Shown here one piece after another: positions 47,467-64,000 of a stretch of DNA of 64,000 nt. Numbering within the stretch: position 1 is the stretch's first letter; each line of letters opens with the position of its first letter. The notes beneath the pieces are model-generated. The model was not told the origin of the DNA, made no database searches, and saw only the letters and a program-made list of their open reading frames with translations. Origin of the DNA: Azonexus hydrophilus (lineage in GTDB: Bacteria > Pseudomonadota > Gammaproteobacteria > Burkholderiales > Rhodocyclaceae); NCBI RefSeq assembly GCF_001956855.1, contig NZ_MTHD01000003.1:1-64000 (forward strand), given 5' to 3'. The translations under genes and the position numbers were made by a program.

Positions 47467-50367
47467 TTATCCCTTCGTAGTCGACCGTTCAAGATTCAGC
47501 GCCAGCAGGCGGCGGAGGATTTCGTCGTCGGGCATCTCGGCCTTATAGTCGTTCCAGCCGTAGGCGGCAGCGACGGCTTTGTCGAGTTCCTTGTGGGCGA
47601 TATCAAGCCAAGCCGGGCGGGCGTTGTAGAGGTTGGTCAGCGTGCGTTTCTTGAGTTCGGCTTCATGGCCGGGCTTGGCCACCGGGCGTTTCGGGAACCC
47701 GGCTTTTTCCTCTTCCGGGGTGATCACCCAATCGACCCATTCGGCCGGGTTCAGCCAAGCTTCGCGCAGTTCGTTGAGGCGGCGGGCGGCAGCGGCAATG
47801 TTGGCGGCGACGATTTCGTTGGCCATGCATGGCGGTGACGCCTGTCCTGGTTTGGGGGCGGTATCGCGCGGTGTCAGGCCGGCGGGGAAGGGGAAGGTTT
47901 CGAAGCAGGTGGTCGGGGTGTAGCGCGGATCGTTGCCGACGCCGAGCCAGGTGCAGAGGCTTAACGACCAGAGTTCGTGGAAGCGGGAATGCAGGATGCC
48001 GAAGGTGGCGTCGTCGCCGCGAGCGACAACAACTAGTGCCTTATCCGGAGAAACTGCTGACGGCAGCCAAACGAAGATTCGGTGTTTGGAGACCGCGCTG
48101 GTGGCGACGTAACGAGGGACTGTTTTTAGAGCGGCGTTGAGCTTTGGTGCTGGTTCGCCAAAAAGCCACCAGTTCTCGGCTCGTGATTGACGACGATTCT
48201 TGATGCGCTCCGGTTTGACGTGCTTTGTCACGTAGTCAAACGGCGCCTCAAACAGGGATGCTTCGCCCTCGCTCATCGTGCCGAAGTCGATGACCCAAAC
48301 GTTACGTGGGCGACGAGTGATATCCAAACCGTTCCATGTAGGCGTAACTACTTTCGCGTTAGAGAGTCCGTTTGGGTTAGGTAAATTCAGCCATCGCATT
48401 GCTATTTCGAAAGGAACGTCAAAGGGACCGTTCTTTTGCGGGCCAATGAATGAAGTCTTCGAATTTTCGGCAAGTTTTTTTGCGTGAATTAGATTGATGC
48501 CGGCGGTAGCGGTGAGATCGGCATGAATCGGCCCCACTTCAAGCCCTTCGAGCTGATTCTTACGGTCAACCGGGAAAATCGGCCCGAATCCAATTAACGA
48601 AACACGCACTGCCGCACCGTCATTAACCCACTCCTCGTCGCTCCATGCCTCGAAAATGCGAGTGGTGTCGACGATGCGTTCCAGAACCTTGCGATTGGCG
48701 CCACCCCGAATAGAGTTGGTGGCAACGAGGCCAGCGCCTTGCAGTTTGCCGGCCTCGATCTGGCCGCGGGCTTTCTCGAACCAGTAGGTGACGAGGTCGG
48801 CGCCGCCGGGGACGCGGCAGTCGTAGGTTTTGCGCAGGGTTTCAACATAGTCGTCGCCGAGTTCGCTGCGCATGACTTTGTCGCCGAGGAAGGGCGGGTT
48901 GCCGACGATGACGTCGGCGGTGGGCCACTCGGCTTCGCTGCCGTCTGGGTTGAGCAGCGCATCGCGGTGGTCGATGCCGTCGAGTGGCTTGAGAATCGGG
49001 TTGATGGCGTGAGGGTAGCCGTTGCGGCGGCACCACTGGATGTCGCCGATCCAGACGGTGACGCGGGCGAGTTCGGCGGCGAATTCGTTGATTTCGAGGC
49101 CGAGGATATTGTGTGGCCCGGAGTGCATGGCGAGTTCAGGTTGCAGGCCGAGTTCCTGGGCGTCGATGTGGGCGCGCTTTTCGATGTCGCGCAGGGCTTT
49201 GAGGGCGAGGTAGAGGAAGTTGCCGCTGCCGCAGGCGGGATCAAGGACGCGGAAGGCGTTGATGCGGTTGAAGAAGCCTTGCAGCAGAGTGTTGCCGCTT
49301 TGCAAGGCATCGTTGGGGCGGTACTCGTTTTTTTTGCGCCCTTTGACCATGCCGAATTTCGGGGCGAGTTCGGCGATTTGTCGGCGGGTGTTTTGCCATT
49401 CGATGGCGAGCGGTTCGCAGACCAGCGGCTGGATCAGCTTGGCGATGGTGCCCGTGTCGGTGTAGTGGGCGCCAAGCGGCGCGCGGGCGGCGGGGTCGAG
49501 GCCGCGCTCGAAGAGGGTGCCGAAGATGGTCGGGTCGATGGCTCGCCAGTCCATGTCGGCGGCTGCGCGGTGCAGGGCGTGCAGGTCTGTTGCGGTCAAC
49601 GACGGAATTTCGATGTTTTTGAACAGGCCGCCGTTGAACCAGGGGATGTCGTGGTCGCCGTAGTCGCCGCCTTTCTTCTGCATGGCGGTGAACAGTTTTT
49701 CGATGCGCCGGGCGGCTTTGCCGGTGTCGCTGCCTGCATTCCTGAGCAGGTCCGTGAAGATGCCGGCTGGAAGTAGGGTTTCGTCTTCGGCGAACATGCA
49801 GAACAGGCACTGGACGAGGAAATGGGCGACTTTCTGCCCTTCTTCGCCCCGGTTGCGCATGGCGGCAGCGAGTTGGGCGAACTGGCCGGCGGCTTCGGCG
49901 GTGATTGTTGCGGTCGACTTCTCCGGACGCAGCTTTTCCGGATCGGTGAATGCCCATTTGAGGGTTTGCCGGGCTTCCGGCTCGCTGAGTTGTTCGATGC
50001 GGATTTCGCGCGGCTCGTCCGGGTAGCCGGTGAAGGCGGTATGGATGACGATGCGTTCGCGGTCGCAGACGACAAGCAGCGGTGGGTTGTCGAGATGAAG
50101 CGCGTAGTCGGTGAGTTGCTTGAGGGCGGCGTTGAGGTCACGCCCCGGTTTCTTGTTTTCCCAGGCGAAATGGCCGCGTTTCCAGACATCGGCCCAGCCA
50201 TCGCCGCCGCCGGCTTTTTTGGCGCCGCGTTCGAAACAGTAGTTGTCCTGATCGCGCGGTTTGTCGACGCCGAGAAGATCGCAAAGATCGCTGAAATGCT
50301 GTTGCGCGCCGGCGCGTTCGTTGAGCGGGTTGTTCTTCCAGGCGGCGATGAACTGTTCTGGCGTCAT
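47467..50367 (-). CDS. Type IIG/IIL (MmeI-like) fused nuclease-DNA methyltransferase
   Basis: A 966 aa protein likely to combine restriction and modification in one chain. The N-terminus has a nuclease-like motif, GDGWADVW followed by FAWENKKPG, with Glu70 and Lys72. The central region has FGTLFERGLDP and LGAHYTD, then methyltransferase motif I DPACGSGNF at 376-384 and motif IV NPPF at 490-493, typical of N6-adenine enzymes. The C-terminal 400 residues would hold target recognition. ATG 50367 (MTPEQF) is preferred to 50403, but neither has a clear ribosome site. Cleavage ability is not certain from sequence. Confidence 0.85.
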   Translation of the reverse strand: MTPEQFIAAWKNNPLNERAGAQQHFSDLCDLLGVDKPRDQDNYCFERGAKKAGGGDGWADVWKRGHFAWENKKPGRDLNAALKQLTDYALHLDNPPLLVVCDRERIVIHTAFTGYPDEPREIRIEQLSEPEARQTLKWAFTDPEKLRPEKSTATITAEAAGQFAQLAAAMRNRGEEGQKVAHFLVQCLFCMFAEDETLLPAGIFTDLLRNAGSDTGKAARRIEKLFTAMQKKGGDYGDHDIPWFNGGLFKNIEIPSLTATDLHALHRAAADMDWRAIDPTIFGTLFERGLDPAARAPLGAHYTDTGTIAKLIQPLVCEPLAIEWQNTRRQIAELAPKFGMVKGRKKNEYRPNDALQSGNTLLQGFFNRINAFRVLDPACGSGNFLYLALKALRDIEKRAHIDAQELGLQPELAMHSGPHNILGLEINEFAAELARVTVWIGDIQWCRRNGYPHAINPILKPLDGIDHRDALLNPDGSEAEWPTADVIVGNPPFLGDKVMRSELGDDYVETLRKTYDCRVPGGADLVTYWFEKARGQIEAGKLQGAGLVATNSIRGGANRKVLERIVDTTRIFEAWSDEEWVNDGAAVRVSLIGFGPIFPVDRKNQLEGLEVGPIHADLTATAGINLIHAKKLAENSKTSFIGPQKNGPFDVPFEIAMRWLNLPNPNGLSNAKVVTPTWNGLDITRRPRNVWVIDFGTMSEGEASLFEAPFDYVTKHVKPERIKNRRQSRAENWWLFGEPAPKLNAALKTVPRYVATSAVSKHRIFVWLPSAVSPDKALVVVARGDDATFGILHSRFHELWSLSLCTWLGVGNDPRYTPTTCFETFPFPAGLTPRDTAPKPGQASPPCMANEIVAANIAAAARRLNELREAWLNPAEWVDWVITPEEEKAGFPKRPVAKPGHEAELKKRTLTNLYNARPAWLDIAHKELDKAVAAAYGWNDYKAEMPDDEILRRLLALNLERSTTKG

Positions 50368-50454
50368 GTTGAGCGGTGAATGACATTGGCTTCGGTGACG
50401 CATGTTAACCGAGTTTGCCCCTCTGGCTCCACGCTTCAGGTCATCGCAATCCCG

Positions 50455-52216: not shown

Positions 52217-52234
52217 CTGTCATCCGGCTGTAAC
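52217..52234 (+). promoter_or_regulatory. Pho box upstream of pstS
   Basis: CTGTCAT, spacer CCGG, CTGTAAC: two near-perfect Pho half-sites with the canonical four-base spacer, 53 bases before the pstS start. A further CTGTCAC lies at 52256-52262. This is the strongest PhoB site in the window. Confidence 0.85.
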
Positions 52235-52287: not shown

Positions 52288-53289
52288 ATGTTCAAGCAAT
52301 CCAAGCTCGTTTCCGCCCTCGCCGTTGCGGGCGTTGCCCTGTTCGGTGCCCAGGCTGCCCACGCCCAGATCGTCAAGATCGACGGTTCTTCCACCGTTTA
52401 TCCGATCACCGAAGCCGTTGCCGAAGATTTCCAGAAGGCCAAGAAGAACGCCATCAAGGTGACGGTCGGCATTTCCGGTACGGGCGGCGGCTTCAAGAAG
52501 TTCTGCCGTGACGAGACCGATCTGCAGAACGCTTCGCGTCCGATCACCGCCAAGGAAATGGCTGACTGCAAGGCCGCTGGTGTCGATTACATCGAAATGC
52601 CGGTTGCCTACGATGCTCTGACCGTCGTCATCAACCCGAAGAACACCTTCCTCAAGCAAGCTACCGTCGAAGAGCTGAAGAAGCTGTGGGAACCGGCAGC
52701 CCAGGGCGTCGTCATGAAGTGGAACCAGGTCAATCCGGCCTGGCCTGATGCACCGGTCAAGCTGTTCGGCGCCGGTGCCGACTCGGGTACCTTCGAATAC
52801 TTCACCGAAGCCATCGTCGGCAAGGCCAAGTCCTCGCGCGGCGACTACACCGCTTCCGAAGACGACAACGTGCTGGTCCAGGGCGTCTCGCGTGACGTCA
52901 ATGGTATCGGCTACTTCGGTTACGCCTACTACGCCGAGAACATGGCCCGCCTGAAGGGTCTGCCGATCGTCAATCCGAAGACCGGCAAGGCGGTTGAACC
53001 GTCGGGTGCCAACGTTGAAAACGGGACCTACGTGCCGCTGTCGCGTCCGATCTTCGTCTATGTCAAGGCCAAGTCGATGCAGAAGCCGGAAGTTCGCGAG
53101 TTCGTCGAGTTCTACATGAAGAACGCCGACAAGCTGATCCGCGAAGTCAAGTACGTGCCGCTGCCGAAGGCTGCCTACGAAGGCAACATCAAGCATGCCA
53201 AGGACGGCAAGATCGGTACCGTGTTCGGCGGCAAGAACGAAGTCGGCATTACCGTCGAAGAAATCATGAAGCGCGAAGCGAAGATGTAA
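52288..53289 (+). CDS. pstS: Phosphate-binding protein PstS
   Basis: A 333 aa periplasmic binding protein of the high-affinity phosphate ABC transporter. A Sec signal peptide ends at AHA before [14 protein letters not shown]. The phosphate-binding loops [18 protein letters not shown] and [10 protein letters not shown] are visible. CAGGAGT precedes the ATG. It is the first gene of pstSCAB-phoUBR, under the Pho box at 52217. Confidence 0.95.
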
Positions 53290-53324
53290 GTCGCACTCGG
53301 CGGGTGCTGTTTGCCCGCTACCAA

Positions 53325-53358
53325 ACAGGCCGGTCCGGCAACGGATCGGCCTTGTTTC
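53325..53358 (+). other. Intercistronic hairpin between pstS and pstC
   Basis: Imperfect inverted repeats (AGGCCG and CGGCCTTG within AACA..TGTT arms) lie in the 85-bp gap after pstS. Such structures commonly stabilise the abundant binding-protein mRNA or reduce read-through to the permease genes. Confidence 0.45.
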
Positions 53359-53374
53359 CGAGAGGAATCTTCAA

Positions 53375-54322
53375 GTGAATCACGCCATGTCTGCAAATTC
53401 CGTATCCGACCTGCACCAGGTCAGCGACCGCCTGGCCCACAACGCCATGCGCCACGTCAGCGAGCGCGTCATCGAGATGCTGCTGTTCGCCGCTGCTGCC
53501 GTTTCTGTGCTGACGACCGTCGGCATCGTCTATGTACTCGTTTCCGAGTCCATCCATTTCTTCCAGAACGTCCCGATCGTCGACTTTCTGACCGATACCC
53601 AATGGACCCCGCTGTTCGATGATGCCCACTACGGCATCATGGTCCTCATCTCCGGTACTTTGGTTTCTTCCGGCGTCGCGCTGGCCGTGGCCATCCCGAT
53701 GGGGACCGTCATCGCCATCTACCTGTCCGAGTTCGCCAATCCGAAAGTGCGCGAAGTTGCCAAGCCGGTGCTCGAACTGCTCGGTGGCATCCCGACCATC
53801 GTTTTCGGCTATTTTGCGTTGTTGATCGTCACCCCGCTGCTGCAGACGATCTTCCCGGAATTGCCGGGCTTCTCGCTGCTCTCCGCCGGCCTGGTGATGG
53901 GTATCATGATCGTGCCCTACATCGCCTCGCTGTCCGAGGATGCGATGCGCGCCGTGCCGATGAGCATGCGCGAAGGCTCCTACGCAATGGGCGCGACCAA
54001 GCTCTACACAGCGATCCACGTTGTCGTCCCGGCGGCCATTTCCGGCCTGGCCGCTTCCTATATCCTGGGCATCTCCCGGGCAGTCGGTGAAACCATGATC
54101 CTGGCGGTTGCCGCCGGCATGCAGCCGAACCTGACCTGGAACCCGATGGAACCTGCTGCGACCATCACTTCCTACATCGTCCAGGTTGCCCTGGGTGACC
54201 TGCCGCATGGCTCGATCGGTTACCAGACCATCTTCGCCGCCGGCCTGACCCTGCTGCTGATCACGCTGATGTTTAACATCGCCGGCCAGTGGCTGCGCCG
54301 TCGCTATCGTGAGGCTTACTGA
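53375..54322 (+). CDS. pstC: Phosphate ABC transporter permease PstC
   Basis: A 315 aa inner-membrane permease with six helices and the EAA-type loop REGSYAMGATKLY. GTG 53375 follows AGAGGA at a workable distance; the ATG at 53387 is the alternative but lies too far from that site. It overlaps the region in which pstA begins, consistent with one transcript. Confidence 0.94.
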   Translation: MNHAMSANSVSDLHQVSDRLAHNAMRHVSERVIEMLLFAAAAVSVLTTVGIVYVLVSESIHFFQNVPIVDFLTDTQWTPLFDDAHYGIMVLISGTLVSSGVALAVAIPMGTVIAIYLSEFANPKVREVAKPVLELLGGIPTIVFGYFALLIVTPLLQTIFPELPGFSLLSAGLVMGIMIVPYIASLSEDAMRAVPMSMREGSYAMGATKLYTAIHVVVPAAISGLAASYILGISRAVGETMILAVAAGMQPNLTWNPMEPAATITSYIVQVALGDLPHGSIGYQTIFAAGLTLLLITLMFNIAGQWLRRRYREAY

Positions 54323-54323
54323 C

Positions 54324-55259
54324 ATGCAACCGATGACTACCGAACAAATCCGCGTGCTGATCGCACGCGGCAAGATGAAAGACACGATTTTCCAGGCACT
54401 CGGCATCATCTGCCTGGCGATCGGCCTGCTGGTGATCTTCCTGCTCGTCGGCGACATGCTGATGCGCGGTCTGGATCGACTCAACATCGAGTTCTTCACT
54501 GAATTCGCCTCACGTCGCGCCCACCAGTCCGGCATCCTGTCGGCCTGGGTCGGCACCATCCTGGTGATGTTCGTCACCGCGATGGCCGCCGTGCCGCTCG
54601 GTGTCGCTGCCGGCATCTACCTCGAGGAGTACGCCAAGCGCAACTGGGTGACCGACATCATCGAGATCAACATCACTAACCTCGCTGCTGTCCCGTCCAT
54701 CGTTTATGGCCTGCTCGCGCTCGGCATCTTCGTCTATACCTTCGGCTTCGGCCAGAGCATCCTGTCGGCCGGCCTGACGCTGGCGCTGCTGATCCTGCCG
54801 ATCGTCATCGTGTCGACCCGGGAAGCGATCCGCTCGATTCCGGCGATGATCCGCGAAGGCTCGATGGCCGTCGGCGCGACGCGCTGGCAGACCTGTCGCT
54901 ACCACATCATCCCCTACGCCATGCCCGGCATCCTGACCGGCGTCATCATCGGCCTGGCCCGGGCGATCGGCGAGACGGCCCCGATCATCACCATCGGCGC
55001 GCTGACCTTCATCGCCTTCCTGCCGCCGGTGCCCTTCACCGCCACCGGCGCAGATGGTGTCTCGGCCGGCCTGTTCGACTGGGTGATGTCGCCCTTCACG
55101 GTGATGTCGATCCAGATCTTCAACTGGACTTCGCGCCCGGACCCGGCCTTCGAGATCAACGCTGCGGCCGCCGGCTTCGTGCTGATGGGCATGGTGCTGT
55201 CGATGAACGCCATCGCCATTTACCTGCGTTACCGCATGCGCAAGAACATCAAGTGGTAA
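54324..55259 (+). CDS. pstA: Phosphate ABC transporter permease PstA
   Basis: A 311 aa, six-helix partner of PstC, with the EAA loop [17 protein letters not shown] 54324 (MQPMTTEQ) has GAGG nine bases upstream; the in-frame GTG at 54309 lies within pstC and is less likely. The stop is followed by a full copy of the repeated palindrome before pstB. Confidence 0.94.
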
Positions 55260-55263
55260 TCCT

Positions 55264-55275
55264 GCGGTCGACCGC
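55264..55275. repeat. Full copy of iterated palindrome GCGGTCGACCGC
   Basis: Intergenic, between pstA and pstB, only four bases after the pstA stop; extended outward by T on the left. Confidence 0.8.
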
Positions 55276-55315
55276 GGAAAAACCCCAGAAACCGACTACC
55301 GAAATGGAATCGCAA

Positions 55316-56095
55316 ATGCAAACTCACGACAAGCCCCAACTCAAGGCCGAGGCCCGCAACCTCAACTTCTACTACGGCGAAGCCAAGGCCCTGAAGAACA
55401 TCAACATGCCGATCTACGACAAGAAGGTCACCGCGCTGATCGGACCTTCCGGTTGCGGCAAGTCGACCTACCTGCGCAGCTTCAACCGCATGCACGACCT
55501 CTATCCGGGCAACCGCTACGAGGGCGAGATCCGCTTCTTCCCGGACAATACCAACCTGCTGTCGTCGGATGTCGATCCGATCGAAGTGCGGATGCGCGTC
55601 GGCATGGTCTTCCAGAAGCCGAATCCCTTCCCGAAAACCATTTACGAGAACGTGGCCTACGGCCTGCGTGTCCGTGGCGAGAAAAACAAGCGCGTGCTCG
55701 ACGAGAAGGTCGAGACCGCCCTGCGCGGTGCCGCCATCTGGGAAGAAGTGAAGGATCGCCTGCAGGAACTGGCACCGAACCTCTCCGGCGGTCAGCAACA
55801 GCGTCTGTGCATCGCCCGCGCGCTGGCCACCGATCCGGAACTGCTGCTGTTCGACGAGCCGACCTCGGCGCTCGACCCGATCGCCACCGGCGCCATCGAA
55901 GAACTGGTGCATGAGCTGAAGAAGCGCGTCACCATCCTCATCGTCACCCACAACATGCAACAGGCGGCACGCGTTTCCGACTACACGGCCTACATGTACC
56001 TGGGCGAGATGATCGAGTTCGGCAAGACCGACGAGATCTTCATCAAGCCGCAGGACAAGCGCACTGAAGATTACATCACCGGCCGCATGGGTTAA
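55316..56095 (+). CDS. pstB: Phosphate ABC transporter ATPase PstB
   Basis: A 259 aa ATP-binding subunit, close to the E. coli length. Walker [10 protein letters not shown], the ABC signature LSGGQQQR and Walker [14 protein letters not shown] are all present. ATG 55316 is preferred because GGAA precedes it; ATG 55304 is a possible alternative, and the GTG at 55253 overlaps pstA. Confidence 0.94.
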
Positions 56096-56108
56096 GGAGC
56101 AGGAAAAA

Positions 56109-56798
56109 ATGAACGAATCCCTACACGTATCCAGCCAGTTCGACGAAGACCTCGGCCGTCTGCGCACGCATGTGCTGCAGATGGGCGGTCTGGTCGAAAC
56201 CCAGATTTCCGCCGCCATCGATGCCTACACGACAGGCGAGGTTGCCAGCGTGAAGACCATCGTCGAGACTGACCGCAAGGTCAACGACCTGGAAAAGGCC
56301 ATCGACGACGATTGCGCCCACATCATCGCCAAGCGCCAGCCGACCGCTTCCGACCTGCGCCTGGTGCTCGGCATCAGCAAGATCGTCACCGATCTGGAGC
56401 GTGCCGGCGACGAAGCCAAGAAGATCGCCAAGGGCGTGCGCCGCATCTACGAAGCCGGGCACATGCCGGCCCAGTATGGCGTCGGCATCCGCCATCTGGC
56501 CGAAGCCGCGCTGACGATGGTACGCCAGGCACTCGACGCTTTCGCCCGGCTTGACGGCACCCTGGCGGTAAGCGTCATCCGTGCCGATGCCGACGTCGAT
56601 GTCGAATTCAAGTCGATCATCCGCCAGTTGATCACGCACATGATGGAAGACCCGCGTACCATTACGACCTCGATCGATATCATCTCGATCTCGCGGGCCA
56701 TCGAACGTATCGGCGATCATGCAAAGAACATTTCCGAGCAGGTGATCTTCGTGGTAGAAGGCCGTGATATCCGTCACAACAAGGAGGCGATCAAGTGA
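56109..56798 (+). CDS. phoU: Phosphate signalling regulator PhoU
   Basis: A 229 aa, all-helical protein made of two three-helix PhoU repeats, each with a metal-binding E/D-x-x-x-D pattern (LERAGDEAKKIA and IERIGDHAKNIS). It links PstB activity to PhoR and restrains the Pho response when phosphate is ample. AGGAGC precedes the start, 13 bases after pstB. Confidence 0.95.
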   Translation: MNESLHVSSQFDEDLGRLRTHVLQMGGLVETQISAAIDAYTTGEVASVKTIVETDRKVNDLEKAIDDDCAHIIAKRQPTASDLRLVLGISKIVTDLERAGDEAKKIAKGVRRIYEAGHMPAQYGVGIRHLAEAALTMVRQALDAFARLDGTLAVSVIRADADVDVEFKSIIRQLITHMMEDPRTITTSIDIISISRAIERIGDHAKNISEQVIFVVEGRDIRHNKEAIK

Positions 56799-57481
56799 CA
56801 CCGACGATTCTGGTCGTCGAGGACGAACCGGCGATTCAGGAACTGGTTGTAATCAACCTCAAGCACGCCGGCTTTCTCGTCGTGCGTGCCGGCAGCGCGG
56901 AAGAGGCCGATTCGGCGATTCGCGCCGCCTTGCCCGATCTGGTGATCCTCGACTGGATGCTGCCCGGCCAGTCGGGTGTCGCGCTGGCGAAGAAGATTCG
57001 CGGCGATGAACGCACGCGCGAGATTCCGATCATCATGCTGACCGCCCGCGTCCACGAAGAAGACAAGGTGCAGGGACTCGACGCCGGCGCCGACGACTAC
57101 GTGACCAAGCCCTTCTCGCCGAAGGAACTGGTCGCCCGCGTCCGCGCCGTCTTGCGCCGCCGGGCGCCGCACCTGGCCGGCGAAGCAGTGGAAGTGGCCG
57201 ACCTCCAGCTCAATCCGGCGACGCACCGCGTGCTGGCCGCCGGCATGCCAATCGAACTCGGGCCGACCGAGTTCCGCCTGCTGTTCTTTTTCATGACGCA
57301 CGCCGAGCGTGTTTATACCCGCGCCCAGTTGCTCGACGAAGTCTGGGGCGACCATGTGTTCATCGAGGAGCGCACTGTCGACGTCCATATCCGTCGCCTG
57401 CGCGCGGCACTCGAATCCTCAGGCCATCACGAACGGGTTGAAACCGTGCGTGGCACAGGCTACCGCTTCCGGGGAGCCTGA
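56795..57481 (+). CDS. phoB: Phosphate response regulator PhoB
   Basis: A 228 aa OmpR-class regulator. The receiver has the acidic pair VVEDEPA and the phospho-acceptor in LVILDWMLPGQSG; the winged-helix output ends RLRAALESSGH...VRGTGYRF. GTG 56795 overlaps the phoU stop. It would bind the Pho boxes described at 52217, 33842 and 60042. Confidence 0.95.
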   Translation: MTPTILVVEDEPAIQELVVINLKHAGFLVVRAGSAEEADSAIRAALPDLVILDWMLPGQSGVALAKKIRGDERTREIPIIMLTARVHEEDKVQGLDAGADDYVTKPFSPKELVARVRAVLRRRAPHLAGEAVEVADLQLNPATHRVLAAGMPIELGPTEFRLLFFFMTHAERVYTRAQLLDEVWGDHVFIEERTVDVHIRRLRAALESSGHHERVETVRGTGYRFRGA

Positions 57482-57486
57482 GCGGC

Positions 57487-58767
57487 GTGCAGCGAGCCTT
57501 GTTTTATGGTGTGTTGACGGCGGCAATTGCCTTCCCGCTGGGTTATTTTGTCGAACAGTGGATGGGGTGGGTCCTGTTCTATACCGGTCTCAGCCTGCAT
57601 CTGGCGATGCATTACCGGAATTTTTCGCGACTCGAACGCTGGTCGCGCAAGCCGGTGCTCGACGCCAGCCTGGAAGGCGATGGTGAATGGGATCGGGTCT
57701 TCCGCCGTCTCTATCGCCACGAAAAGGAACTGCTGGAAAAGATCGAGCGGCGCGAACGCGACATCGCCCGGCTGATTGCCGCCGTGCATGCGATGAACGA
57801 CGGCATCGTGCTGCTCGACGGTGAATTCCGCATCCAGTTCTGCAACAAGACCGCCGAGCGACAGCTGGACCTCGCGTCGGTGACCGATCGTGGTGCACCG
57901 ATTGCCAATATCGTTCGCCAGCCAGCCTTTATCGACTACCTGGCCAAGGCCGATTTTTCCCGGCCGCTGGTGTTGCGTCTGGATCGCTATTTCGAGCGCG
58001 TGCTGTCGCTCTACCTGATCGCCTATGCCGAGAATCACTGGCTGCTGCAGGTCAAGGACATCACGCAGACCGACCGCCTCGACGGCATGCGCCGCGATTT
58101 CGTCGCCAATGTCTCGCATGAACTGCGTACGCCGCTGACGGTACTGTCCGGTTTCGTCGAAACCCTGCAGGAAATCGACGTCGATACCGAATCGCGCCAG
58201 CATTACCTGCAACTGATGGGCGAGCAGTCGCAGCGCATGCAGTCCATCGTCCAGGACCTGCTGACGCTGTCGTCGATCGAGTCGGCGCCGCCGCCGGAAG
58301 ATCAGCAGGTGGACATGGCGACGCTGGTGGACAAGCTGCGCCGCGACGCCGAAGCGCTGTCGGCCGGGCGCCACCGCATCCTGCTGGAAAGCGAAGGCCA
58401 GGGCGACCTGCTCGGGTCGGAATCGGAGCTGGTCAGCGCGCTCGCCAACCTGGTTTCCAATGCCGTGCGCTACACGCCGGCCGGCGGCAGTATCACGTTG
58501 ATCTGGAAAATCTCGGCCGCCGGTGCTGAATTCGCCGTCCAGGACACCGGCATCGGCATCGACCCCAAGCACATCCCGCGCTTGACCGAACGTTTCTACC
58601 GCGTCGACCGCGGCCGCTCGCGCGACGCCGGCGGCACCGGGCTGGGCCTGGCGATCGTCAAGCATTCGCTGAGCCGCCACCAGGCGACGCTGGAAATCAC
58701 CAGCAAGCCGGGCGAGGGCAGCCGCTTCGCCGCGAAATTCCCGTCCAGCCGGGTGACCGGGGTTTAA
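57487..58767 (+). CDS. phoR: Phosphate sensor kinase PhoR
   Basis: A 426 aa membrane-anchored histidine kinase. Two short N-terminal helices are followed by a PAS domain (about 95-190), the His box [19 protein letters not shown], and the ATPase domain ([24 protein letters not shown]). GTG 57487 lies five bases after phoB. The 3' end overlaps convergent purT by four bases. Confidence 0.94.
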
Positions 58768-59963
58768 CCCCCAAGCGGCTTGACCTTGCTGGCGGCCAGT
58801 TTGGCGCGGCTGCGGGCTTCGTCGGTATCGGCGCCGTTGGCAACGGCAACCCCCATGCGGCGTTTGACGAAGGATTCCGGCTTGCCGAACAGGCGCAGAT
58901 CGCTGCACGGTACGGCCAGCGCTTCCTCGATGCCGCTGAAGGCAATGCCGCTGGCTTCCATGCCGCCGTAGATGACGGCCGAGGCGCCGGCTTCGCGCAG
59001 TCCGGTATCGACCGGCAGGCCGAGGATGGCACGGGCGTGCAGTTCGAACTCCGAGAAGCGCTGCGAGCACAGCGTCACCAGCCCGGTGTCGTGCGGGCGC
59101 GGGCTGACTTCCGAGAACCACACCATGTCGCCCTTGACGAACAATTCGACGCCGAACAGGCCGCGCCCGCCGAGGTTGCCGGTGACGGCGGCGGCGATTT
59201 CCTGCGAGCGCTGCAGCGCGGCCGGCGTCATCGCCTGCGGTTGCCAGGATTCGACGTAGTCGCCGGCGACCTGCACATGGCCGATCGGTTCGCAGAAGCG
59301 GGTGACCACGGCGCCGCCGGCATCGCGGGCGCGCACCGTCAGCAGCGTGATCTCGTAGTCGAAGTCGATGAAGCCTTCGACGATGACCCGGCCCTGGTTC
59401 ACCCGACCGCCGCTGGCCGCGTAGTCCCAGGCTTTCGCCACGTCGTCGGGGCCGCGCAGCAGCGACTGGCCTTTGCCGGAAGACGACATCACCGGCTTGA
59501 CGATGCAGGGATAGCCGATTTCATCATCAATGGCCGCCTGCAATTCGGCCAGCGAATCGGCGAAGCGGTAGGGTGAAGTCGGCAGGCCGAGTTCCTCGGC
59601 CGCCAGCCGGCGGATGCCTTCGCGATTCATCGTCAGCCTGGCGGCGCGGGCGGTCGGGATGACTTCGGCCAGCCCGGCTGCTTCGATCTCGACCAGCATG
59701 TCGGTGGCGATGGCTTCGATTTCCGGCACGATCAGATGCGGTTTTTCCAGCTCGACCAGCCGGCGCAGCGTCGCCCCGTCGGTCATCGAAATGACGTGGG
59801 CGCGATGCGCGACCTGGTGGCCGGGCGCATTCTCGTAACGGTCGACGGCGATCACCTCGACGCCAAGGCGCTGCAGCGCAATGATCACTTCCTTGCCGAG
59901 TTCGCCCGCGCCGAGCAGCATGACGCGGGTGGCGGAGGGCGATAGCGGGGTGCCGATTTGCAT
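58764..59963 (-). CDS. purT: Formate-dependent GAR transformylase PurT
   Basis: A 399 aa ATP-grasp enzyme of purine synthesis, converting glycinamide ribonucleotide to its formyl derivative with formate and [20 protein letters not shown] is the N-terminal nucleotide fold, [12 protein letters not shown] the ATP-grasp loop, and [14 protein letters not shown] the metal-binding region. AAGGACATCCC precedes the ATG. It is not evidently connected with the phosphate genes. Confidence 0.95.
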
Positions 59964-60041
59964 GGGATGTCCTTTTTACGGTCGACGGCGAAAATCGGGC
60001 AAATCTAGGCGTGGACCGCAGGAATTGCAAGTGCTGGCGCA

Positions 60042-60070
60042 TTGTCACCGTTTCGTCACATCGTCGTCAT
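60042..60070 (+). promoter_or_regulatory. Triple Pho-type half-sites upstream of plcP-like gene
   Basis: TTGTCAC, CGTT, TCGTCAC, ATCG, TCGTCAT: three 7-base half-sites, each matching the GTCAT/GTCAC core, at an exact 11-base period, ending 33 bases before ATG 60104. This is the architecture of a tandem Pho box. It lies in the 140-bp gap divergent to purT. Confidence 0.65.
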
Positions 60071-60103
60071 ATGCGTTTCACGCGGGCTGGCTATCGTGCC
60101 CGC

Positions 60104-60904
60104 ATGCCCAAAGTCAGAAGCTTGTTCTTGTCCGACATCCACCTAGGCACGCGGGCGTGCCAGGCGGATCGACTCCTCGATTTCCTGCGCGAGCACCCGG
60201 CCGAGCAGACTTTCCTGATCGGCGACATCGTCGATTTCTGGGCGATGAGCCGCAGCATCTGCTGGACTCAGGCGCAGAACACCGTGGTGCAGAAACTGTT
60301 GCGCCGGGCGCGCAATGGCGAACGCGTGGTGTTCATCCCTGGCAATCACGACGAGGTGCTGCGCGAGTATTGCGGCACGGTCTTCGGCGATATCGAAGTC
60401 GCTGACCAACTGATGCACGAGACCGCCGACGGCAAGCGCTACCTGCTGATCCACGGCGACCAGTTCGACCAGGTGACGCGCCATCACCGCTGGGTGGCGG
60501 TGCTGGGCGACAAGGCCTACGACCTGCTGGTCCGGATCAATCACCTGCTTTCCTGGGTGCGCCGCAAACTCGGGCGGCCCGGCTACTGGTCGCTGGCCGG
60601 TTATGCCAAGCGACGGGTCAAGACGGCGCTCAATTTCATCTTCGATTTCGAGGAATCGGCGGTGCACCACGCCCGCGAACGCGGTCTCGATGGCGTCATC
60701 TGCGGCCACATCCACTGGGCGACGATCCGCGACATCGATGGCCTGGCCTACATCAATTGTGGCGACTGGGTCGATTCCTGCACCGCCATCGTCGAACACT
60801 TCGACGGTCGCCTGGAACTCGTCGCCTGGGGCGAGCTGGAAGTGCAGCAGCGGCAACTGGCCGCACCGGCAGCGATGCCGGACAACGAAACAGTCGAGGT
60901 CTGA
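60104..60904 (+). CDS. PlcP-like metallophosphoesterase (LpxH-like fold)
   Basis: A 266 aa calcineurin-fold phosphoesterase. All metal motifs are intact: LSDIHLG at 7-13, GDIVDFW, PGNHDE, LIHGDQFD and CGHIHWA. Generic annotation would be UDP-2,3-diacylglucosamine hydrolase. However, the layout (ACQADRLLDFL, VDFWAMSRS, GDWVDSCTAIVEH) resembles PlcP, the phospholipase C that strips phospholipid head groups during phosphate starvation in alpha- and gammaproteobacteria. The triple Pho site, the adjacent GT4 gene and nearby dgkA support PlcP. There is no clear ribosome site before ATG 60104; an in-frame ATG lies at 60071. Confidence 0.72.
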   Translation: MPKVRSLFLSDIHLGTRACQADRLLDFLREHPAEQTFLIGDIVDFWAMSRSICWTQAQNTVVQKLLRRARNGERVVFIPGNHDEVLREYCGTVFGDIEVADQLMHETADGKRYLLIHGDQFDQVTRHHRWVAVLGDKAYDLLVRINHLLSWVRRKLGRPGYWSLAGYAKRRVKTALNFIFDFEESAVHHARERGLDGVICGHIHWATIRDIDGLAYINCGDWVDSCTAIVEHFDGRLELVAWGELEVQQRQLAAPAAMPDNETVEV

Positions 60905-60905
60905 A

Positions 60906-62087
60906 ATGCGCGTATTGATGGTGTCTGATGTCTATTTTCCGCGGGTCAATGGCGTGTCGACGTCGATCGAGACCTTTCGCCGGACGCTGGCGCTCCAGGG
61001 CGTCGAGGTTCGCCTGGTGGTGCCGCGCTACGGCGACGAGCCCGATGAGCCGGGGATCATCCGCGTTGCCGGCCGGCCGGTGCCGGGTGACCGCGAGGAC
61101 CGGCTGGTCGGCTGGCGGGCGATGCATCGTGCCGTGCTGGCAGCGGCCCGCGATTGCGACCTGATTCATGTGCAGACCCCGTTCATCGCCCATTACGCGG
61201 GCCTGAAGGCGGCCCGCACGCTGGGCCTGCCGGTGGTGGCCACCTATCACACGCTGTTCGAGGAATACATCGCGCACTACGCGCCCTTCCTGCCGGCCGG
61301 CTGGTTGCGCCGGCAGGCGCGGTCGCTGTCGCGGCGCCAGTGCAATGCGCTCGACGCGGTCATCGTGCCGTCGCGGGCGATGCGCGACCGGCTGACCGAT
61401 TACGGCGTGCTCGCCGACCTGCATGTGCTGCCAACGGGGATTCCGCTGGCCCAGTTCGCCGCCGGCGACGGTGCTGAGTTCCGGCGTCAGCACGACATCC
61501 CGGCCGGGCGTCCGCTGGCCCTGTTTGTCGGCCGGGTGGCGCATGAAAAGAATATTGGCTTCCTGTTCGAAGCCTTGCAGCATGCGCATCGGCAGCATCC
61601 AGGCATCCTCCTCGTCGTTGCCGGCGAAGGGCCGGCGATGGCCGACCTGCAGGCGCAGGTCGCGGCTCTCGGCCTGGCTGACTCGGTCCGCTTCATCGGC
61701 TACCTCGACCGGCGTCAGGGCTTGCCCGCCTGTTATGCGGCAGCCGATGTCTTCGTCTTTGCCTCGCGCACCGAAACCCAGGGCCTGGTCCTACTCGAAG
61801 CCATGGCCGCCGGCTTGCCGGTGATCGCGCTGTCGGCCATGGGCACCGCCGACATCCTCGATGCCGGCTGCGGCTGCTTCACGCCGCCCGACGATCCGGC
61901 GGCATTCGGCGAAGTGCTGGGCCGGATGCTGGCCAATCCGGCGGCCTGGGGGCATCTGGCGGCGGAGGCTGGAGAGTATGCCCGCTCGTGGTCGGATAGC
62001 GCCATGGCCAGCCGGCTGGCCGGGCTGTACGGCCAGTTGCAGCAGGCGAAAATGGCCGCCGGCGAGCCGTCGACCGCAAACGCCTGA
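60906..62087 (+). CDS. Glycosyltransferase family 4, candidate diacylglycerol glycosyltransferase
   Basis: A 393 aa GT-B enzyme. The N-terminal acceptor domain begins MRVLMVSDVYFPRVNGVSTS and includes TYHTLFEEYIAHY; the C-terminal donor domain has FVGRVAHEKNIGF and the EX7E-type segment ETQGLVLLEAMAAGLPV. It starts one base after the phosphoesterase stop, so the pair is coupled, as plcP and agt are in lipid-remodelling bacteria. The acceptor as diacylglycerol is inference from context; many GT4 enzymes use other acceptors. Confidence 0.8.
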   Translation: MRVLMVSDVYFPRVNGVSTSIETFRRTLALQGVEVRLVVPRYGDEPDEPGIIRVAGRPVPGDREDRLVGWRAMHRAVLAAARDCDLIHVQTPFIAHYAGLKAARTLGLPVVATYHTLFEEYIAHYAPFLPAGWLRRQARSLSRRQCNALDAVIVPSRAMRDRLTDYGVLADLHVLPTGIPLAQFAAGDGAEFRRQHDIPAGRPLALFVGRVAHEKNIGFLFEALQHAHRQHPGILLVVAGEGPAMADLQAQVAALGLADSVRFIGYLDRRQGLPACYAAADVFVFASRTETQGLVLLEAMAAGLPVIALSAMGTADILDAGCGCFTPPDDPAAFGEVLGRMLANPAAWGHLAAEAGEYARSWSDSAMASRLAGLYGQLQQAKMAAGEPSTANA

Positions 62088-62093
62088 GCTCGC

Positions 62094-62468
62094 TCAGATA
62101 TCTTCGATGACCGGCACCAGCCGGTCGACGGCGCGCAGGCGTTCGGCCATGACGCGCATCACCTGCATGGCGAAGAACGGGGTGTTCTGCACCAGGAACT
62201 GAAAGCGCTTTTCGTCGATGGCAACGAATTCGCTGTCGCTGGTGGCGACGACCGTTGCCGAACGCGGACCGGGAGAAACCAGGCCCATTTCACCGACGAT
62301 GCTGCCGTGCTGGAGCTGTTCAACAACGCGGTTGTTGACCATGACATCGGCGCTGCCATTGGTCAGTACATACATCACGCCGCCTTCGTCGCCTTCGCCG
62401 AACAGCGTTTGGCCGGCAGGAATGCCGACGATGGTCGGGTTGTGGGCGAACAGTTCGAAGAAAACCAT
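62094..62468 (-). CDS. Stand-alone cyclic-nucleotide-binding domain protein
   Basis: A 124 aa protein consisting of one CNMP-binding beta-barrel (GEGDEGGVMYVLTNGSADVM, then GSIVGEMGLVSPGPRSATVV). There is no DNA-binding or catalytic domain. The phosphate-cassette region GEMGLVSPGPRSAT matches the family. It is convergent with the GT4 gene and divergent from dgkA. A Pho-type box at 62525-62542 is oriented toward it. The effector and target are unknown. Confidence 0.82.
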   Translation of the reverse strand: MVFFELFAHNPTIVGIPAGQTLFGEGDEGGVMYVLTNGSADVMVNNRVVEQLQHGSIVGEMGLVSPGPRSATVVATSDSEFVAIDEKRFQFLVQNTPFFAMQVMRVMAERLRAVDRLVPVIEDI

Positions 62469-62524
62469 GGGACTTTTCCGTGAGTTGAGATGGCTCTTTT
62501 TATCATGTCGCCGATGGTCCGGAT

Positions 62525-62542
62525 ATTTCTGCCGGATGACAG
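62525..62542 (-). promoter_or_regulatory. Candidate Pho box between cNMP gene and dgkA
   Basis: Read on the minus strand: CTGTCAT, CCGG, CAGAAAT. The first eleven bases equal those of the pstS box; the second half-site matches five of seven. A second pair with 11-base period (TCGTCAT / CGGTCAC, minus strand) lies at 62576-62593. These are weaker than the pstS box. Confidence 0.4.
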
Positions 62543-62651
62543 TCGGGCGCGGTTTGATCTGGCGCAAGCGCCGATGTGACCGGAAGATGACGATGGCTGT
62601 CATCAAGGTTACGCGAAGCCTGATTAACGTGGGGGCTTTCACGGAGCCCGC

Positions 62652-63068
62652 ATGCAACAACCCGCACCCGAGGAACTGGGCCTGGACCCGGCGAACGAAT
62701 CGCCCTTCAAGGGCAAGACCGGCCTGCGCCGGGTCTGGAATGCCTTCAACTACTCGCTCGACGGCCTGAAAGCCGCCTATCTCTGCGAAGACGCCTTCCG
62801 CCAGGAAACCTGGCTGGCGCTGCTGCTGATTCCGCTGGCGCTGTGGCTGCCGGTCGGCTGGCTGGCGACCGGGCTGCTGATCGCCAGTGTCCTGCTGGTG
62901 CTGGTCGTCGAACTGCTCAATTCCGCCATCGAAGCAGTGGTCGACCGCGTCAGCCTGGAGAACCACCGGCTGGCGAAGCGCGCCAAGGATATCGGCAGTG
63001 CCGCGGTACTTGTATCGCTGCTCCTGGTCTTCGTCGTCTGGGGCAGTGTCTTGCTGGAATTTTCTTGA
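62652..63068 (+). CDS. dgkA: Diacylglycerol kinase
   Basis: A 138 aa small membrane kinase phosphorylating diacylglycerol to phosphatidic acid. Three membrane helices and the signature NSAIEAVVDRV followed by HRLAKRAKDIGSAAV are present. An N-terminal ~30-residue soluble extension precedes the usual start. ACGGAG lies before the ATG. Diacylglycerol is the product expected from a PlcP phospholipase, so its place next to the plcP-like gene is notable. A terminal GT4 gene follows after 13 bases. Confidence 0.93.
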   Translation: MQQPAPEELGLDPANESPFKGKTGLRRVWNAFNYSLDGLKAAYLCEDAFRQETWLALLLIPLALWLPVGWLATGLLIASVLLVLVVELLNSAIEAVVDRVSLENHRLAKRAKDIGSAAVLVSLLLVFVVWGSVLLEFS

Positions 63069-63081
63069 TGGAGATTGCCTG

Positions 63082-64000
63082 ATGCTGGAAATTGCCTTCG
63101 TCACCGAAACCTACCCGCCGGAAGTGAACGGCGTGGCCATGACCGTCGGTCGGCTGGTCGGCGGCCTGCGCGACTGCGGTCACCGCGTCGAGGTTCTGCG
63201 TCCGCGCCAGGGCAAGACGGACGCCGGCAGCGAACTGGACACGCCCTTGCCCGGGGTGCCCTTGCCCGGCTATCCCGGCTTGCGCTTCGGCCTGCCCGCC
63301 GGGCGCGAACTGGTCCGGCGCTGGCGCAAGCGCCGGCCGGATCTGGTCCATGTCGTGACCGAGGGGCCGCTCGGTTGGTCCGCGGTCGGCGCAGCGCGCC
63401 GGCTGGGGATACCGGTGACCTCCGGCTTTCATACCAATTTCGACCGCTATAGCGTGCATTACGGCATGGGCTGGCTGCGGCCGGCGGTGGCGGCGTATCT
63501 GCGCGTACTGCACCGGCGGACGCTGGCGACGATGGTGCCGACCGAGGCGCTGGCTGCCGAACTGGCGGGCGAGGGCGTGCCGGGCGTGCGCGTGGTTGGC
63601 CGCGGGGTCGATTGCCACCTGTATGACCCGGCCCGGCGCAGTGACGAACTGCGCAGCAGTTGGGGCGTCAGCGGCGAGGGGCCGGTCTGCCTCTACGTTG
63701 GCCGGCTGGCACCGGAAAAGAATCTGGCGCTGGTCGAGAAGTGTTTTGCCGCAATCCAGGTCTGGCATCCGGCCGCGCGCATGGTCTGGGTTGGCGATGG
63801 TCCGTCGGCGCAGCGTCTTGCGGTCGACCACCCGGATCACCACTTTTCCGGCATGCGTCATGGCGAGGATCTGGCGGCGCATTACGCCAGCGCCGATCTG
63901 TTCCTTTTTCCCAGTCTCAGTGAAACCTACGGCAACGTGGTGGCCGAGGCGATGGCCAGCGGCGTGCCGGTGATCGCCTATCGCAGTGCGGCAGCGGCCG
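63082..64000 (+). CDS. Glycosyltransferase family 4 (partial, second copy)
   Basis: An open gene running off the right edge, about 306 codons visible. It starts MLEIAFVTETYPPEVNGVAM with a GGAGATT ribosome site before ATG 63082. GFHTNFDRYSVHYGMGW, LYVGRLAPEKNLALV and SETYGNVVAEAMASGVPV mark a GT4 enzyme resembling mannosyl- or glucosyl-lipid synthases (MgtA/SqdX-like). It is probably co-transcribed with dgkA. Acceptor and donor are unknown. Confidence 0.85.
   Translation, partial: MLEIAFVTETYPPEVNGVAMTVGRLVGGLRDCGHRVEVLRPRQGKTDAGSELDTPLPGVPLPGYPGLRFGLPAGRELVRRWRKRRPDLVHVVTEGPLGWSAVGAARRLGIPVTSGFHTNFDRYSVHYGMGWLRPAVAAYLRVLHRRTLATMVPTEALAAELAGEGVPGVRVVGRGVDCHLYDPARRSDELRSSWGVSGEGPVCLYVGRLAPEKNLALVEKCFAAIQVWHPAARMVWVGDGPSAQRLAVDHPDHHFSGMRHGEDLAAHYASADLFLFPSLSETYGNVVAEAMASGVPVIAYRSAAAA

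Follow-up and report, generated by a model that had tools for sequence, protein, structure and literature searches.

The window, i.e., the whole stretch of DNA analysed here, is the opening 64 kb of a 541-kb contig from Azonexus hydrophilus, a freshwater bacterium with a genome of 3.6 Mb. On the plus strand it carries pstS, pstC, pstA, pstB, phoU, phoB and phoR (52288..58767), each scoring above the cut-off of its NCBIfam model, and purT (58764-59963, minus strand) sits between phoR and plcP. The plcP gene (60104-60904, +) encodes a metallophosphoesterase of 266 aa (PF00149, 51.3 bits; cut-off 21.5), assigned to the PlcP type by identity and tree, and a gap of 1 base separates its stop codon from the start of gt4a (60906-62087, +), whose product Pfam and tree identify as a GT4 glycosyltransferase from a clade distinct from that of Agt1. 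A single-domain cNMP-binding protein (PF00027, 63 bits) is encoded on the minus strand from 62094 to approximately 62468, with a start codon picked by reading the sequence. It is followed by dgkA (62652-63068, +), a prokaryotic diacylglycerol kinase gene (PF01219, 116.7 bits; cut-off 22.3), and, starting 13 bases downstream of dgkA, by gt4b (63082-64209, +), which runs past the window end (64000) and codes, again by Pfam and tree, for a GT4 enzyme from another such non-Agt1 clade. An earlier sequence-only reading of this DNA had named five genes, for a phosphoesterase, a GT4 enzyme, a cNMP-binding protein, DgkA and a second GT4 enzyme, and all five are present, with coordinates and Pfam matches. 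It had also placed them just beyond pstSCAB-phoUBR; all seven pst-pho genes do lie upstream, but purT, which that reading did not mention, intervenes.

The arrangement was compared across a set of 80 related loci, obtained by a scan biased toward close relatives, 58 of which have full context. GT4a lies immediately downstream of plcP in 63 of the 77 loci that extend at least 1.3 kb past plcP, and dgkA is found within 5.5 kb of plcP in 31 of the 58 full-context loci, in 30 of these 31 immediately before GT4b. These gene orders, observed directly, show that the plcP/GT4a and dgkA/GT4b arrangement goes beyond chance. In the other 27 full-context relatives, A. fungiphilus (L009) included, dgkA is not nearby, and 18 of these 27 keep GT4a beside plcP. 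Both GT4 types recur beside plcP in related loci; in L075 and L107, plcP, GT4a and GT4b are clustered in another order, without dgkA.

The best named matches of the phosphoesterase are from Azonexus fungiphilus and Azonexus hydrophilus (90-91%). As references we used the PlcP of a public Sinorhizobium meliloti record, close to an AHL synthase, and that of a public P. aeruginosa stretch in which PlcP, a glycosyltransferase and CyaB are consecutive; from known neighbours and identity, we take these records to be SMc00171 and PA3219-PA3218. Over 243 residues the window protein shares 55% identity with the S. meliloti PlcP, and its identity to the P. aeruginosa PlcP is 51-52%. Between the two references we measured 46.6% identity, and the value published for the S. 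meliloti and P. aeruginosa PlcPs is 46% (PMC8528852, in the part of the text available). A quick tree was built on 54 rows, comprising 27 selected relatives, 5 PlcPs that were either named or from the window, and 22 LpxHs (20 of the 39 found LpxHs were used). It separated 32 PlcP from 22 LpxH rows with an SH-aLRT support of 100 and placed the window protein on the PlcP side. The motif GNHDE stands in 32/32 PlcP rows, the window protein among them, and GNRDF in 22/22 LpxH rows. Against the LpxH model TIGR01854 the window protein scored 44.1 bits, under the cut-off of 190.35; the genome has one LpxH copy above that cut-off, at another site, and the same holds in 39 of 41 genomes searched. The sequence-only reading had called the esterase PlcP-like and proposed a tree with LpxH and PlcP references as a check; identity, tree and motif bear it out, and it is not refuted, since the protein groups with PlcP and a separate LpxH exists. 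We read the window phosphoesterase as PlcP and not LpxH, with a predicted phospholipase C activity. Among the matches listed there are also 30 plasmid relatives of this PlcP, 24 of which bear the LpxH name, the other 6 having no listed feature. On a plasmid of Mitsuaria sp. 7 (L092:3914-8697), plcP is followed by the polyphosphate genes ppk1 and, on the opposite strand, a Ppx/GppA gene.

GT4b, and then GT4a, are the genome's closest relatives of P. aeruginosa Agt1, at 32-35% identity, and Pfam places both in the GT4 family. A glycosyltransferase tree was built without the near-duplicate loci L018, L028, L048 and L106 and without a duplicate L091 row; its outgroup branches are very long. In it the GT4a-type (25 rows), GT4b-type (16) and Agt1-type (17) sequences form three groups with supports of 93, 100 and 99, respectively, where the row labels were taken from the best BLAST match, so that the Agt1-clade test is not fully independent. 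Agt1-clade membership of GT4a or GT4b was rejected on these three separate groups, which changes the earlier picture of an Agt glycosyltransferase at work here, and the second glycolipid that the earlier reading attributed to the second GT4 enzyme is a conjecture. By position, GT4a and GT4b would be the glycosyltransferases of the module; because neither is in the Agt1 clade, however, the assignments of sugar and acceptor are guesses.

The window DgkA belongs to the DgkA family, matching the E. coli DgkA structures with E = 7e-29, and another dgkA copy lies elsewhere in the genome. To quantify the linkage, 150 genomes were drawn from the order, of which 70 have plcP. In 13 of these 70, representing seven family codes, dgkA lies within 5 kb of plcP, against an expectation of 0.226 based on genome size and copy number; genomes of the same family are not independent, but one event per family would still far exceed the expectation, and split contigs conceal linkage. 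A dgkA is present anywhere in 59 of the 70 plcP genomes, no DgkA-family match was found in 11, and in 57 dgkA is not within 5 kb. As a control, LpxH was near dgkA in 0 of the 27 genomes with both; plcP-dgkA linkage numbers 3 in the same set, so this control is weak alone. At the level of the phylum, dgkA is within 5 kb in at least 9 of 102 plcP genomes, as counted by eye. The gene order varies, being plcP-agt1-dgkA in L097-L101, L103-L105, L116 and L117; plcP-gt4a-dgkA-gt4b in L096 and in the named relatives L014, L039 and L068; plcP-gt4a-dgkA in L115; plcP-dgkA-gt4a in L069, L077 and L078; and dgkA-plcP-agt1 in L113 and L114, outside the class. In L095 dgkA-gt4b precede plcP, and in L102 dgkA is divergent and one gene off plcP. 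The DgkA tree, from which L164 and L165 (copies of module rows) were left out, is poorly resolved, with 11 module-label changes, at least 2 of them forced by starred branches. The dgkA gene is a recurrent, non-obligatory partner of plcP, and the DgkA pairing noted from the single locus recurs far above chance. Four genomes that share the family code f88 (G199, G219, G337 and G339) show a looser neighbourhood, with dgkA 11-13 kb from plcP.

A PhoB-box-like element that agrees with 12 of 14 consensus positions precedes pstS (52217..52234, +), and at least two units are found in 10 of the 11 pstS upstreams of the locus set, window included. Upstream of plcP, the periodic-core scan found a PhoB-box-like array of three units with an 11-bp period (60042..60072, +). 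With a narrow core, defined as GT[CA]A repeated every 11 bp with at least one GTCA unit and picked after viewing the sequence by eye, this array, starting at 60044 and thus 60 bp upstream of plcP, is the sole run of at least three units in the 64-kb window; runs of at least two units number seven, those at pstS and at 62577 included. The same core occurs with at least two units in 53 and with three in 35 of 72 plcP upstreams (plcP matches of at least 60% identity), against a background of 1.7% with two units and 0.34% with three among 16,200 random 150-bp stretches from related loci. A wider plus-strand core, [GT]T[AC]A, picked after reading the promoters of relatives, gave at least three units in 54 of 56 plcP upstreams of close relatives (at least 78% identity) versus 18 of 8000 random 120-mers. 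By the strict 14-position Pho consensus the plcP array scores below 10/14, and in many loci of the wider gene-order comparison no run of the narrow core was seen upstream of plcP.

The gap between the cNMP gene and dgkA holds three further elements. A PhoB-box-like match directed toward the cNMP gene (62525..62542, -) agrees at 11 of 14 positions, weak alone with 2.85 such matches expected per shuffled window, and the narrow-core scan found a two-unit reverse PhoB-box-like element at 62574..62593 (-). Of 40 dgkA upstreams, 21 have such a reverse two-unit element at position -75 relative to the dgkA start, with the cNMP gene or another gene as neighbour. A CTGTCAT half-site (62597..62603, +), conserved as [CT]TGTCAT, precedes dgkA; of 33 dgkA upstreams, a set that leaves aside seven loci with dgkA after another gene or elsewhere, 31 carry the forward form between -66 and -41. 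Counting both strands, the window has 6 copies of CTGTCAT, of which one precedes pstS and two lie in this gap. We read the gap as a candidate divergent PhoB-controlled region. It is likely that dgkA itself responds to PhoB, although the clear tandem points away from dgkA. The PhoB control claimed for the locus finds agreement at the sequence level in the PhoB-box-like arrays before plcP and beside dgkA.

The same gap and its flanks differ among relatives. The cNMP gene (62094-62468) encodes a lone cNMP-binding domain without a DNA-binding domain, and such a gene is near plcP in 27 of the 58 full-context relatives. In L106 (5321-6010) and many Azonexaceae loci, a gene of approximately 230 aa, exported as judged by eye, stands between the cNMP gene and dgkA, and in those relatives the reverse PhoB-type element is directed at it; its product matched no Pfam family above cut-off. 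Other relatives have a longer ORF, porin-like by eye, in the cNMP-dgkA gap.

The locus has, in our judgement, a good chance of being a phosphate-starvation module for membrane-lipid remodelling with DgkA at the diacylglycerol branch point, and its core, a PhoB-controlled PlcP-glycosyltransferase module, is a well-supported prediction. Protein families, gene order, conserved box arrays and plcP-dgkA linkage are direct observations from sequence. Every enzymatic and regulatory step that we infer from them runs as follows. At low phosphate, PhoB would bind upstream of plcP, at the array, and with less certainty at the divergent element in the cNMP-dgkA gap. PlcP would then strip the phosphorylated head group off phospholipids, yielding diacylglycerol, to which GT4a and GT4b would add sugars, giving phosphorus-free glycolipids. 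DgkA would convert diacylglycerol that is not glycosylated into phosphatidic acid and so set the split between glycolipids and phospholipid re-synthesis; this branch point would be active during starvation and not solely afterwards.

Several other explanations bear on individual parts of this mechanism. The public annotation of relatives would make the phosphoesterase LpxH or a lipid A paralogue: its best NCBIfam models are LpxH, the sole solved relative from the sequence search is LpxH 5k8k, and 24 of the 30 plasmid relatives among the matches listed are annotated UDP-2,3-diacylglucosamine diphosphatase, a name that was probably carried over wrongly, the best ones being PlcP by identity. We give this explanation almost no weight and rejected the LpxH identity on the tree split and the motif; 44 bits against a cut-off of 190 and the LpxH already present elsewhere in the genome also stand against it. 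That dgkA, a housekeeping gene, lies at the locus by chance is scarcely more credible. The enzyme is conserved and of a single family, and it is not beside plcP in most plcP genomes (57/70); the 13 linked genomes against 0.226 expected, on which chance neighbourhood was rejected, the varied orders across seven family codes and outside the class, and the want of LpxH-dgkA linkage in 27 genomes (with plcP-dgkA linkage only 3 there) all argue the other way.

The acceptor of the glycosyltransferases and the timing of DgkA leave more room. One or both GT4s may glycosylate a phospholipid, e.g., phosphatidylglycerol, in place of diacylglycerol, whereby surface charge would be altered and phosphorus not spared. 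The best NCBIfam model for both is GlcNAc-phosphatidylglycerol synthase, and neither lies in the Agt1 clade; the scores of 150 and 147 bits, however, are far under the model's cut-off of 480, the adjoining PlcP would supply diacylglycerol, and the characterised relative Agt1 of P. aeruginosa uses diacylglycerol (PMC8528852, available part), and we regard a phospholipid acceptor as improbable. Somewhat less improbable, though still unlikely, is the version of the sequence-only reading, in which DgkA serves recovery and turns diacylglycerol into phospholipid once phosphate returns. DgkA chemistry is established, remodelling must be reversible, and the plcP-dgkA linkage fits equally; yet both the PhoB-type half-site, which 31 of 33 relatives have upstream of dgkA, and the plcP-agt-dgkA operons elsewhere predict DgkA synthesis during starvation. 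As dgkA is apparently co-produced with plcP, we favour a diacylglycerol branch point operating in starvation as likelier than a role in recovery, although a kinase that re-phosphorylates diacylglycerol spares no phosphorus, which counts against it.

The lipid-swap strategy is known; the locus differs from described plcP-agt pairs in its two GT4 clades apart from Agt1 and in dgkA as a partner. Pairs of plcP and agt with Pho boxes, and their glycolipids, have already been described (PMC4796936, PMC8528852, PMC9239053, each as far as its available text goes). P. aeruginosa, with plcP-agt1 (PA3219-PA3218) and agt2 (PA0842), resembles the window in having PlcP then a GT4 enzyme, Pho boxes and two glycosyltransferases; in the public P. 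aeruginosa stretch, however, there is no dgkA, the two glycosyltransferases are at separate sites (PMC8528852, available part), and the window GT4s belong to clades other than that of its Agt1. In the S. meliloti record, whose PlcP is 55% identical, no glycosyltransferase directly adjoins, unlike in the window. Marine plcP neighbourhood types 2, 3 and 5 share with the window a Pho box and a downstream glycosyltransferase, but the available neighbourhood sections do not name dgkA as a partner; Betaproteobacteria has 0 occurrences in the main text of that paper (PMC4796936). For P. putida BIRD-1, the available text reports both PlcP and a diacylglycerol kinase, DagK, enriched at low phosphate and calls them PHO-dependent; it describes no operon of DagK with PlcP, does not state the family of DagK and does not list it with the proteins that the phoBR mutant lacks (PMC5082522). 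The sequence-only reading named no precedent for the DgkA pairing, and no plcP-dgkA operon was found in the literature (best matches, open full texts), but the co-induction of PlcP and DagK in P. putida is published (PMC5082522, same part). Likewise, among best matches and open full texts, no paper with both Dechloromonas and PlcP was found. The reaction of mcr phosphoethanolamine transferases leaves diacylglycerol. The mcr genes with an adjoining dgkA offer an analogy only, with another enzyme and another purpose (PMC7559476, available part).

These results place lipid remodelling of the PlcP type in Azonexus, in Dechloromonas and in further members of the order; annotation conceals PlcP modules by putting a lipid A enzyme name on 24 of the 30 plasmid relatives among the matches listed. 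They also single out two glycosyltransferase clades apart from Agt1, and DgkA, a long-studied enzyme, gains a testable role in phosphate starvation. More tentatively, and with the odds somewhat against it, we suggest that PlcP and DgkA may form a PhoB-controlled starvation cycle that adjusts membrane charge and head groups as well as phosphorus content, that the two GT4 clades may draw two glycolipids from the same branch point, and that DgkA may have been recruited to plcP operons more than once.

Elsewhere in the window, a 978-aa ORF at 47467-50403 (-) resembles, by eye, a large restriction-type DNA methyltransferase.
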